Part shown: positions 876 to 60,594 of the stretch, one piece after another
Numbering within the stretch: the stretch's first letter is position 1
Layout: each line of letters begins with the position of its first letter
Source: Microbotryomycetes sp. JL201
Lineage: Eukaryota > Basidiomycota > Microbotryomycetes
Direction of reading: 5' to 3'
NCBI GenBank assembly: GCA_033819885.1
Contig: JAQYUZ010000029.1
Location: forward strand, 1-64,000
DNA: 64,000 nt
Program-made: the position numbers and the translations under genes
Notes under the pieces: generated by a model
Databases searched by the model: none
What the model was told of the DNA's origin: nothing
Seen by the model: the letters and a program-made list of their open reading frames with translations, nothing else

Positions 876-3800
876 ATGTCAATCGGCCACGGCCACGATG
901 GCGGGCACAATGCCGTGCCTGTCGTGCAATTCTCTGTCGTCGACGAGAGCGCGCTCGAGCCGCCTGCGGTCGACAACCCCGCCGCCGTCCAGTTTGGGTT
1001 CAACGATGGGTCGACGTGGCAGCAGGCTCAATCGAGTGTCGTCGGACACGCGCCGCCGATCGCTAGCACGAGCACGCACGCGCTCGGTTTGGCCAACGGT
1101 GGCACGAACAACAACGCAGAGGCAGACAACGGCGACGACGCGGCAGCGACCCGCAGGTACATTCGCTACTTGCGTAAGTCAAGTTCGAAACAAGGTTCGA
1201 GCGCGCGTGCAACACTGGGCAACGATTCGACGACCGAGGTGCTTTTTGCGCATTGGCCTCTCGACTTGCCCAGTTGCGCGTGACTCGGTTCGAACCTGAC
1301 TGACGCACTCGCAACCATACTGCAGAACCTATGGAATCGGATTTAGCAAAGCAAGTAGAGTATGACATGGACGAGCACGGTACGCGCCCTGCTTTCAGTT
1401 CAACCGTCGGCGAACTTCCATCGTCTGACTGTTTCCCCGTTTCACGCAGACAAGACTTGGCTCGACAGCATCAACAACGAACGCAAACAGACAGGCACAG
1501 CACCAGTCTCGTATGACGCTTTCGAGATCATTATTGACAAACTCGAAAAAGAATGGTTTGACCTGGTAAGCCTACGCCACCAGGTTCCATACATCTGCCA
1601 CAGCATCGAGGACCGAGAATGTTGCATCAACCTGTATTTTCCGGGTCGTCAGAGATCAACATTCGTCATTCAGAAATTCGCGAGAGGCTCGGTCCTCGAC
1701 CGCTCCGACGCGAGACAAACTAGATACACGCGTATCATTGCTGACTGTCATTCTGACGGATCCGCACGCAGCAACGTATGATTCCCAAGAAAGCAAGAGA
1801 CATGCCACTCGAAGATGGGTTCTGTGCGATTTGTGACGACGGCGAGTGCGAGAACTCGAATGCAATCGTCTTTTGCGATGGCTGCAACCTCGCTGTTCAT
1901 CAAGGCAAGCCTGCTTTGAATGCTGCGTTCGATATTGGCTTCACTGACTGCGGACAACAGACTGTTACGGCGTGCCGTATATTCCTGAAGGGCAATGGCT
2001 CTGTCGCAAGTGCACTGTCTCGCCCGACCAACCAGTGGTCAGTCAGGCAGGTTTATGCACACGCTTCGACCCAATCTGACATCTCGGTCTGTAGTCATGT
2101 GTCTTGTGCCCTAATCCGTACGGCGCCTTCAAGCAGACGACGACAGGACACTGGGCACACTTGCTTTGCGCCATCTGGATCCCCGAGACAGGCGTCGCTA
2201 ATACAGTTTACATGGAACCAATCGACGGCATCGAACACATCTCAAAGTCACGTTGGAAGCTTCAATGCAGCCTGTGTCGGCACAAGCAAGGAGGCGCCTG
2301 TATCCAATGTGCCAACCGAAACTGCTTCCTAGCATTCCATGTCACCTGCGCGAGAGAGCATGGGCTCGAGTTGAAAATGAAACCTGGTTCGGAAAGAGGC
2401 GAGCTCAAAATGTTCTGCGCAAAGCACGGTCAGTGATCGTTATCTGGGGACCCTCGCACTCGATTCATACTCATGTGAGACTGGGACGACAGGTGGCACT
2501 CCTCAAGTCCAAGAGCCTTCGCCCGATGGCAACTCCTCAGCTGCTTTGACGTCGTCTGCCCGCAAACTAAAATCGTTGAAATCGAAACAAGCTTACAAAC
2601 GGACGTACAAGGTCGGGTTGCCTGTCGTCCCTCAATATGTTTTCGAGCGCGTGTCAGATTACGTCGAGCGACTCAAGATTGCGAAGAAGTCAGAGTTCAT
2701 GAACGCGCTGTGCCGATACTGGAGTCTGAAGCGGCAGCAGCGGAGGGGGGCACCGTTGTTGAAGAGGTTGCATCTCGAGGTCAGTCGCTGTCTTCAGGCT
2801 GGTTGGCTGAAGGTTTTCCCACCAGCTGATAAATCTGCTCCATGATAGCCTTGGACGGCATCTGGCTCAACTCAACAAGCAACGGAGAAAGAAAAGGCCA
2901 AGAAACTCCAACTCATGAGACTCTTGCGCAATGATCTGGAAAGAGTTCGAATGCTCGTGGAGAGCGTTCGCAAACGTGAGAAGAAAAAGCTTTCGAAAGT
3001 CAACGTCGTCAAGCAGGTCATCGACAACTTTGTGTGGGCAAAGGAGAAACCGATGCGTGAAGTGTTGGAAAAGATTCGACAGTGAGCTGCAAGTTTGGTC
3101 CAGGACACACAATGACGCTGACGTCGAAGCACACTTCTGCGTAGCCTCGACATTCGAAATTGGTTCACAAAACCGGTTGATGCCAATGAAGTTCCAGACT
3201 ATTACGACATTGTTCAAAACCCAATGACGCTCGACCTGATGCGTCAAAAGATTGACAACCACTCTTATACTTCCGCGCAAGACTTTGTCAAAGACCTTGA
3301 CTTGATCGTCTCAAACGCAATCTTGTACAACGGCGCCGACCATCCTGTGGCAAAAACGGCTGTCAAACTCAAAGAGAGGTCTCAAGATTTCTTGAAAGAG
3401 CTGCAACAGATCGACGCAGTCGAGTCTGACGTCAACGTCTTGACGACATATTTGGGAATGGTATTGACTGAAGAGGTGGTGGAAGAGCTATTCGAGTACG
3501 AAGGTCAAGCTCTACCCGTTGGCCAACACGTCGTCAATACGTCGAGCGAGGCCAATGCAATCAGTACTGATAATGCTGCTGCTGTCAAGAAGAGGGAAGA
3601 CCAGATAGGCGGTAGTCGGGAGCAAGTTTTGCCTGCGACTGGCGAGGCGGATAAGGATAAGGACAAGGACAAGGACAAGCAAACTACGGATAAGAACAAG
3701 ATGGAGGCAAAGACGAACGTCAAGAGGACGGTAGAGCAAGCGCAACCCGACAGGCGACCGACCCGCTCGATGGTGGATGTGGCCAAGAAGGAGTCTCAGC

Positions 3801-54236: not shown

Positions 54237-55320
54237 ATGGGCCGCACAAAGGACGACAAGTTGGCGTACTTCGCCAAGCTCAAGGATTACATTGAGACGT
54301 ATCGTGAGTAGATAATACTACTCTTTGAAACGATGTCGCCCTGATGCTTCAGTGCTGATCACTGTCATGAACTCTCAGCTTCGATCTTGATCGTCAACGT
54401 CGACAATGTCGGCTCGAACCAGATGCACCAAATTCGCCAAGCTCTCCGTGGCAAGGGTGTCATTTTGATGGGCAAGAACACGATGGTTCGCCGTGCCATT
54501 CGCCTCATCATCGCCGAGAACCCGGCTCTCGAGCGCTTGTTGCCCCAGGTCAAGGGCAACATCGGCTTCGTGTTCACGTCCGAGGACCTCAAGTCTGTTC
54601 GCGACATCATTGTCGCCAACAAGGTCGCCGCTCCGGCCAAGGCTGGTGCTTACGCGCCCAACGACGTCTACGTCCCCGCCGGCAACACTGGTATGGAGCC
54701 TGGCAAGACTTCTTTCTTCCAGGCCTTGAACATCCCTACCAAGATTGCTCGTGGTACGATCGAAATCGTGTCCGACATTCACTTGGTCGAGGCCGGTTCG
54801 CGCGTCGGCTCGTCCGAGGCGACTTTGCTCAACATGTTGAACATTTCCCCGTTCACGTACGGTATGAAGATTATTCAGATCTACGACAATGGCAACTTGT
54901 TCAGCGAGTCTGTCTTGGACATTGAGGAGAGTGCCTTGATCGGCCAGTTCATGTCTGGTGTCAAGACGATCGCCGCCATCTCTTTGGCTCTCAACTACCC
55001 CACGCTGGCTTCGGTCGCTCACTCGTTGGTCAACTCTTACAAGAACTTGTTGGCTGTCTCGCTCGCCACCGACTACACGTTCGAGGGCGCCGAGAAGGCC
55101 AAGGCTTACCTCGAGAACCCCGAGGCGTTCGCTGTCGCTGCCGCGCCTGCCGCCGCTGCTGGTGGTGACGCTCCCGCCGCCAAGGCTGAGGAGAAGGAGG
55201 AGGAGAAGGAAGAGTCTGATGACGACATGGGGTGAGTTGATATCGCTCGAGCTTGTCTCTGAAACCGACCGAGCGCTGACCGAAACTGTTCGATTCAATA
55301 GCTTTGGCTTGTTCGACTAA
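54237..55320 (+). CDS. RPP0: 60S acidic ribosomal protein P0
   Basis: Base of the ribosomal stalk, which binds 25S rRNA and carries P1/P2 dimers. Three exons, about 312 residues. [20 protein letters not shown] then [99 protein letters not shown]; Ala-rich hinge and acidic tail [16 protein letters not shown]. The last exon (55302-55320) is 19 nt and supplies FGLFD. Codon choice is strongly biased to C-ending codons and AAG, unlike most neighbours, as expected of very high expression. Confidence 0.97.
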
Positions 55321-58893: not shown

Positions 58894-60594
58894 TTATTCC
58901 CACTCTACGACCGTGTCAAAGAATTGTTTTGCGATTCGATCTTGAGCTTGCTCTCCCGTTTCCCCTGTTTCATTGTTGTCTCCGATCGCTCTGACGACCT
59001 GATCAAGTTTGTGAACGTTTCTGTCAGCTGGCGATTGCTTGCAAGTTCAAGACGAACAAAAGGTTTCGACTGACAAAAAAGTGGTGACCCATCAGATCTT
59101 GAGGTTCAAAAGCTTTTCCAGCTTTGCCTGGTTTTTCAAATCATTTGATCAAACGAGCATGTCAGAATTGATTGCTTCTGGGCGGGAATGAAATCGGGGG
59201 TTTGGGAGAATGTATGAGCTGACCGTATACTTTGGCGCCTGCTTCCCTCGCGATGATCGTACCAGCGCAAACGTCCCAGCTGTTTGTAAGTAGCGAACGT
59301 TGTAGTCAGTTTCGTCAAAGACCAAACGAGATTGGTGAACCCAGACTTGCGACCAGCAACCGATTTCCCAGTACAAGTCCAAAGAACCACTGGCGACGTA
59401 GCTGTAATTGAGCGCAGCGGACCTGATCATTGCAAAAAGAGGGAGCGTTACTGTATCAGCCTGATTGTTTGACACTGCAAGCCAGACCGGACCAAGGTGG
59501 CAAAAGTTTTGATTGCACTGACCCGATCGACCGGAGAGCGTGAGCCATCACACCGCCTTTGACTTCTTGACCGTCCGCAGTTAGCTTTTTAAAAGTGTCA
59601 CCTTTGCCGTCGATAGCTCTTTTTGATCTGTCCGAGCCCCATTCGACGGCGATGACGGCGTCAGATAACGAGTCGAGCGGCAAGGGTTCGTTCGGGTGTG
59701 ACAACGGCAAACGAATGTGTTGATTCAAAAACGCGCCTTTTCCCTGGCGCGCAGAATATAGCTTTTCGAGGAAAGGATTGTAAATGACGCTGACCAAAGG
59801 ATCTCGTAAGTAAAAAGCCAGTGCGCGTGAGTGTACGTGCTCGTCACTGACCCAATTGTTGGGATTTGTTGGTAGGTGAAGCCGATCGAAACGGCGACGT
59901 GGTCAAACTGGTGCACAAAGTTTGTCGTGCCTGCACAAAGCCGATTAGTTCGCAAAACTCGCGCCCTTGTACGAGAGCGCGCTGACCATCTTTCGGAGTG
60001 GCAGAAAACAGTAATGTCAGGCAGATGGCTCGTTTTATCATGTCTGAAGCAAGCACTGACCAATCGGATCCACAATCCAAGTTGGTTCGTCGGTCAACTC
60101 GACCTTTTCGCCTGCCGCGTACGACTCTTCACCAATGAATTTGTGATCGGGATACTTGGATCTGATCTCTGACAAGATGAAGCGTTCAACAGCTTGATCC
60201 GTTTCTGTAACCACTGTCGAATCGAACAACAGTCAGCGCCAAAGTTCATACCGCGCGCGTCGAGGAATCGAAAGCAGCCAATTGTCGGTACAGAGTATAA
60301 TTGAACGCTGTTGCAGAGCTGGCAGGCCTGGCCAGTGTACCCTTTGTACGTGTATCGTTCAACTCGGCTCAACTCTGTCGTTTGTCTGGCCATGTAGGTC
60401 AAGCCACCTTCGGTAATGGACCTCCGATGACTTTGACATGCGTCCTGGTCAGACTCACAATCGACGCTATTCTTCTTTGTGCCGTCAGCCGCGTGCGAGT
60501 TGCGATTCGAGCTCGCGTCGCGAATCATTCGTCCAGCACGTCGCGCAAGCTCGATCGCAAACTCGAGCGCATCATCAAAGTCTTGATCTTGCAT
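58894..60594 (-). CDS. Inositol-1-monophosphatase
   Basis: Mg-dependent hydrolysis of inositol monophosphate to free inositol. Nine exons; the alignment was followed residue by residue. MQDQDFDDALEFAIELARRA, KKNSVDLVTETDQAVERF, GEESYAAG (metal-binding Glu), WIVDPIDGTTNFVHQFDHVA (catalytic DPIDGT), SIGFTYQQIPTIGVIYNPFL, GVMAHALRSIGSAALNYSYV, EIGCWSWDVCAGTIIAREAG (third metal-binding Asp), KAFEPQDLMGHHFFVVRAIG and a TAA at 58894 after TVVEWE. The second Asp of DPIDGT needs a 3-nt exon (59987-59989), and the join in GCWSWD needs a GC donor. The first intron is unusually long (about 245 nt). The first ATG is 60594; the longer frame begins TTG. All metal ligands are present once spliced. Confidence 0.9.
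59280..59350 (-). other. GC-AG intron in the inositol monophosphatase gene
   Basis: The exon ends GGTTGCTGGTC, the donor is gcaagtct and the acceptor acaaacag, 71 nt, with a CTGAC branch site. The product EIGCWS-WDVCAGTI is the conserved third metal site. The GT upstream (gttgctgg) puts the next exon out of frame. Confidence 0.8.
59987..59989 (-). other. 3-nt micro-exon carrying the catalytic Asp codon of inositol monophosphatase
   Basis: On the coding strand, GATCCGATTG is followed by a 71-nt intron (gtcagt...ccgaaag, with CTGAC), then ATG, then a 56-nt intron (gtcagc...tttgtgcag, with ACTAAT), then GCACGACAAAC. G + ATG + GC reads GAT GGC, giving DPIDGTTNF. No one- or two-exon path I tried restores this motif. 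Skipping leaves the frame intact but gives DPIGTTNF. Confidence 0.75.

Follow-up and report, generated by a model that had tools for sequence, protein, structure and literature searches.

A 3-nt exon that very probably supplies a catalytic aspartate in a basidiomycete inositol monophosphatase gene

The window analyzed here, a 64,000-nt stretch of DNA from Microbotryomycetes sp. JL201 (contig JAQYUZ010000029.1), harbors a complete inositol monophosphatase gene on the minus strand (60594-58894). Its nine coding exons (136, 153, 3, 79, 267, 72, 56, 53, and 105 nt) form a frame of 307 codons uninterrupted by a stop and encode a product of 307 aa. Exon 1 (60459-60594) has its ATG start at 60594 and ends with ...KKNSVD in a phase that fits exon 2, and the junction created by removal of intron 1 (60214-60458; 245 nt; GTGAGT...CGACAG), NSVD|LVTETD, agrees with the family alignment. 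Exon 2 (60061-60213) holds the GEES motif and the first Asp of the signature DPIDGT, and ends with ...TWIVDPI plus a single G. Downstream of the region that separates it from exon 4 (59852-59930), which starts with GC + ACG... (TTNFVHQFDHVAVSIGF), lie intron 4 (59790-59851; 62 nt), exon 5 (59523-59789), intron 5 (59423-59522; 100 nt), exon 6 (59351-59422), intron 6 (59280-59350; 71 nt), a GC-AG intron (GCAAGT...ACAG) placed manually by means of the WSWDVCAG frame, exon 7 (59224-59279), which encodes WDVCAG with an Asp that aligns with human Asp220, intron 7 (59128-59223; 96 nt), exon 8 (59075-59127), intron 8 (58999-59074; 76 nt), and exon 9 (58894-58998), which runs to the stop codon; all of these features are on the minus strand.

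The 307-aa product matches the Pfam profile PF00459 at 256.0 bits (cut-off, 27) and is thereby a member of this family, and in PDB a partial build of 256 aa hit chains that bear the name inositol monophosphatase 1, with ~190 bits. The motifs of inositol monophosphatases are GEE, DPxDGT, G[ST]AA, and WDxA (PMC2080633). Their counterparts in the rebuilt protein are GEES, DPIDGT, GSAA, and WDVC, the last of which has a C at the final position of WDxA, and DPIDGT is present only when the 3-nt exon is included. Outside this microexon the reading frame is intact, and the other metal ligands are present in GEES, DPI, and WD (for the ligand roles, see PMC4954947).

The signature DPIDGT is split as ATTG|ATG|GCACG. 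Exon 2 ends with ...GTG GAT CCG ATT G and exon 4 starts with GC ACG ACA AAC, and their direct joining gives DPIGTTN, from which the second Asp is missing. Between them, as the original prediction had placed it, lies a CAT on the plus strand (59987-59989), that is, an ATG on the coding minus strand, which as an exon would complete the Asp codon (G|AT) and start the Gly codon (G|GC). Its 3 nt are far below the limit of 30 nt that defines a microexon among spliced internal exons. It is flanked by two complete introns, each with a donor, a branch-like site, and an acceptor, the AAG acceptor of the first being the weak element. Intron 2 (59990-60060, minus strand; 71 nt; GTCAGT...GAAAG) contains a CTGAC branch-like site at 60016-60020, the A of which (60017) lies 28 nt from the intron end and is followed by no AG before the acceptor used, and intron 3 (59931-59986, minus strand; 56 nt; GTCAGC...GTGCAG) contains a CTAAT at 59944-59948, the A of which (59945) lies 15 nt from the end. 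A competing acceptor on the same strand that the original prediction passed over, TCAG|CGCG (59982-59983), ends at 59982, 8 nt downstream of the AAAG acceptor, and opens an in-frame read-through from 59981 to 59931.

All combinations of up to two introns (GT-AG or GC-AG, each of at least 35 nt) were enumerated over 60213-59852, and the resulting 5788 combinations were searched for the pattern DP[IVLT][DE][GS][TS] with no stop. A single combination restores the signature, namely the ATG exon between the 71-nt and 56-nt introns, and none of the 64,261 single junctions over the same interval, with any dinucleotides allowed, gives DPxD[GS][TS]; the claim that DPIDGT can be rebuilt only by way of the ATG exon is thus borne out. 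The sequence anatomy, this single solution, and the intact frame of the remaining gene are seen directly. Nineteen combinations retain DP followed by one to four residues and TNFVHQ..., 16 of which additionally cut away part of exon 2; the other three give DPIDGT by way of the ATG exon, DPIARTT by way of a 3-nt CGC exon, and DPIGTT by way of a single intron of 130 nt. The CGC exon and the single-intron models were ruled out, the Asp being lost in them. The predicted spliced sequence is GATTGATGGCACG with the microexon, GATTGGCACG when it is skipped, and GATTGCGCGCTC... when the 59982 acceptor is used. Skipping keeps the frame and removes only the second metal-binding Asp, as had been foreseen, and retention of either intron 2 or intron 3 leads to a stop codon.

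The splice signals were compared with those of 20 other introns from five genes in the window, which were assigned by hand and exclude the two tested introns (phosphatase gene, four; P0, two; NTO1/BRPF-like gene, six; PUS1-like gene, six; DnaJ-domain gene, two). The splice junctions of this reference set rest on general family sequences, and the gene identities alone were checked against PDB and Pfam. Ribosomal protein P0 is encoded at 54237-55320, and its closest PDB chains are 8c3a, 6uz7, 7olc, and 3j16, which are fungal ribosomes; in PDB, the PUS1-like gene matched tRNA pseudouridine synthase 1 (112 bits) and the NTO1/BRPF-like gene matched Peregrin/NTO1 (145 and 123 bits), and the DnaJ-domain gene gave a DnaJ match of 42 bits. 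Pfam yielded no more than a sub-threshold PHD match for the NTO1-like piece and no match for the two PUS1-like pieces. No tRNA genes were found in the window.

Nineteen of the 20 reference introns are 54-100 nt long and the remaining one is 245 nt (median, 69.5). The tested introns, at 71 and 56 nt, lie inside the 54-100 range, and skipping of the microexon requires an intron of 130 nt. Intron 1 of the phosphatase gene (60458-60214) measures 245 nt against this median of 69.5, and no coding sequence is required from it. When scored with a donor matrix built from the reference introns, whose own donors range from 5.88 to 11.0 bits, the donor of intron 2 reaches 8.09 bits and that of intron 3 reaches 9.26 bits, values attained by 1.2% and 0.5%, respectively, of 7730 GT sites. 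The reference acceptors comprise 15 CAG, five TAG, and no AAG, and the AAAG acceptor of intron 2 is therefore atypical. In a crude scan of acceptor types behind a strong donor and CTGAC, in which introns are not separated from background, the share of AAG was 0.19 of 58 versus 0.20 of 217. The earlier description of the acceptors as good applies to the TGCAG of the 56-nt intron, but does not extend to the acceptor of the 71-nt intron, since its GAAAG end is unlike those of all 20 reference introns.

Seven of the 20 reference introns start with the uncommon local 5′ splice site GTCAGT, and GTCAG is common to both tested introns. GC donors occur in five of 22 hand-assigned introns, comprising the reference set and phosphatase introns 7 and 8 without the two tested introns: 59350-59280 (-), 7433-7338 (-), 6725-6664 (-), 6024-5945 (-), and 1905-1960 (+). 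GC donors average 1.009% in fungi (PMC7072748). A crude scan for branch sites behind GC donors showed no excess (GCAAG[TC], 13 of 133 versus 0.102 at all positions), so the high share of GC donors is unproven. A blastn search with both tested introns against the window returned, besides the introns themselves, only matches of at most 18 bases, and lends no support to a recent duplication as the source of the two introns.

A chance origin of the microexon pattern is unlikely. The 130-nt stretch was put through 20,000 dinucleotide shuffles that left six bases fixed at each end. AG-A[TC]G-GT flanked on both sides by 45 nt or more was found in 37 of them, and none of the 20,000 additionally had a second donor scoring 8 bits or more together with CT[AG]A[CT], and no further AG, before each acceptor. 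This 7-mer occurs 22 times on both strands of the window, which corresponds to ~0.02 expected occurrences per 130 nt.

The Mg-II of human inositol monophosphatase is bound by Asp90, Asp93, and Asp220 (PMC4954947), and DPXDGT is counted among the metal and substrate elements (PMC2080633). Judging from the sequence, the microexon very probably supplies the equivalent of human Asp93, an Mg-II ligand. The PF00459 score of 256.0 bits with the microexon falls to 242.4 when it is skipped, and the 17-aa insert that results from the 59982 acceptor lowers the score to 229. A search of genome contigs for relatives of the gene gave six loci, all of which are bacterial, and no relatives were found in viral contigs, either by the relative search or with one exact 35-mer from the gene. 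The residues were then compared across 52 prokaryotic loci, consisting of these six bacterial-contig matches, 16 further matches, and the best 30 of a longer list. The second Asp is present in 42 of the 52, all of which also carry the first Asp; part of these 42 come from a different superfamily branch, that of the DPLDGTKEF type, and two of them (L006 and L012) look like one gene. In the other 10 loci, which are apparently five genes each present twice as identical segments, the second Asp is replaced by Ser (six) or Asn (four) and the first Asp is Asn in every case; they may therefore be regarded as degenerate paralogues rather than as single losses. Five of the loci (L001-L005, matching from 3001 on) are bacterial relatives with NPL[SN]G instead of DPxDG, in which both metal-binding Asp residues are lost, and such relatives are probably catalytically degenerate paralogues. 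The Asp-less loci indicate that the family is able to lose these metal-binding residues.

Taken as a whole, the locus very likely encodes a normal, active phosphatase, in which the second-Asp and Gly codons are completed by a constitutive 3-nt exon between two short U2-type introns. The otherwise intact frame argues for an active enzyme. We infer that the exon is actually spliced into the mRNA, and that under intron definition each of the two introns would be recognized across itself, introns 2 and 3 being excised one after another. Such consecutive excision would not require recognition of the 3-nt exon, because both introns are normal in size and signals, with the exception of one acceptor. 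As to the order, prior removal of the 71-nt intron would give GATTGATG|GTCAGC, in which the second donor is kept, and prior removal of the 56-nt intron would turn the ATG into the 5′ edge of a normal-sized exon. In a survey of 42 eukaryotes, retained introns far exceed cassette exons in the surveyed fungi, the ratio being 37-fold for fungi and protists, and its authors take intron definition to apply in ascomycetes, basidiomycetes, and zygomycetes as well (PMC2397502); likewise, consecutive excision under intron definition has been described for fungal twin introns (PMC6616335). A constitutive microexon is the best reading because the introns could be excised singly without exon recognition and because of this literature on fungal intron definition. 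The view that so small an exon would challenge exon-definition models is not upheld, since short fungal introns are paired and recognized across the intron (PMC2397502, PMC6616335).

The original prediction also raised a splice switch between active and dead enzyme. A regulated switch of this kind, in which the microexon would be included or skipped, or the 59982 acceptor used, according to condition, so that either active or in-frame dead enzyme is made and the dead form perhaps serves as a dominant-negative dimer partner, appears very unlikely. Skipping and the 59982 acceptor both preserve the frame and ruin only the motif, the weak AAAG acceptor next to a CAG is a possible point of competition, and a regulated 20-nt microexon has been reported in Trichoderma Xlr2 (PMC11121469). 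However, skipping calls for the 130-nt intron, which exceeds 19 of the 20 reference introns; the cassette-exon fraction averages 3% in fungi and protists (PMC2397502); and a 51-nt read-through would, on a rough estimate, be open in frame by chance in about one of seven cases. A splice switch is thus conceivable but unsupported, and we consider it improbable. The same low expectation attaches to a three-way in-frame decision, in which the AAAG acceptor would lead to active enzyme, skipping to an Asp-less protein, and the CAG 8 nt downstream to a 17-aa insert; if it were true, splicing could tune inositol recycling via catalytically dead dimer partners, because all three products are translatable.

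Two further readings dispense with the microexon altogether. The Asp codon may have been lost at the edge of exon 2, by mutation or assembly error, with AGATGGT being coincidental and the true intron spanning 60060-59931 (130 nt). A 3-base loss beside the donor would yield exactly this exon edge, GTCAGT...GTGCAG is a valid intron, and the AAAG acceptor that the microexon needs is atypical; but this scenario demands a rare coding loss together with a chance match of the kind found in 37 of 20,000 shuffles, the remaining frame exhibits no decay, and the intron would again be longer than 19 of the 20 reference introns, all of which makes it highly improbable. Alternatively, a single 79-nt intron (60060-59982) would retain the 51 nt that follow the 59982 acceptor, and the protein would carry the in-frame 17-aa insert ARSRTRARVLRTNRLCA in place of the Asp. 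Its CAG acceptor is of the common type, its length is typical, and its frame is open into exon 4, and this model is one that a gene finder could well output; nevertheless, it ruins the signature, forfeits 27 bits against Pfam, and gives no account of the strong donor and the branch-like site within the insert, and it is to be regarded as extremely improbable.

Tiny exons are rare but smaller ones are known, and the case stands out in that a catalytic residue would rest on three bases. The constitutive microexon would be a clear example, at the sequence level, of an exon of 3 nt giving a catalytic residue to a housekeeping enzyme whose gene has many short introns. Gene models made automatically might well predict a dead enzyme, with either the insert or no Asp, and such genes may for this reason be miscounted as non-catalytic. 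Since 130 nt hold both introns and the exon between them, with splice sites 3 nt apart, the locus would also be a compact test system; the microexon fits intron definition and bears on how the spliceosome handles sites at such a distance.

Exons of exactly this size, 3 nt, are known from homothorax and Ncam, both of which are animal genes. Neither of these exons is known to supply a catalytic residue. The micro-exon of Drosophila homothorax is alternatively spliced (PMC7392893), and the second example is from mouse (PMC8042270). An open-literature search for inositol monophosphatase together with microexon gave, among the matches listed, a Schistosoma expression study as the sole joint match (PMC3166049). 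The notion that 3 nt is the lower limit of exon size does not hold, because plants and Fusarium have documented exons of 1 nt (PMC4674806, PMC8831610, PMC12940212). The 1-nt exon of Arabidopsis APC11, which lies in a 422-nt intervening sequence, was shown experimentally (PMC4674806), and 1-nt exons are described for plant APC11 and VPS55 (PMC8831610); as in the present gene, a conserved protein needs the ultra-small exon, and theirs were overlooked by annotation, but they belong to plant genes and have an experimental basis. Among fungi, the P450 genes of Phanerochaete chrysosporium resemble the present gene in that an intron-rich fungus carries microexons beside small introns, although their shortest exon is 6 bp (PMC1184071) as opposed to 3 nt here. 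Stwintrons share with introns 2 and 3 the adjoining short introns and the consecutive reactions under intron definition (PMC6616335); however, in a stwintron one intron breaks the splicing signal of another and no coding base lies between them, and a stwintron is rejected here because a zero-base junction would give DPIGTT, whereas the motif requires three coding bases between the introns. A close parallel is found in the CYP621A P450 genes of Fusarium, for which a 1-nt exon is reported in 20 orthologues, with RNA reads from two species (PMC12940212). That exon is frame-essential, whereas the present one, known from the sequence of one gene, is 3 nt long and could be skipped in frame; in both fungi, however, an ultra-small exon lies in a conserved motif between two short introns, motif and phase demand the exon, and the combined intron would be about twice the usual length.
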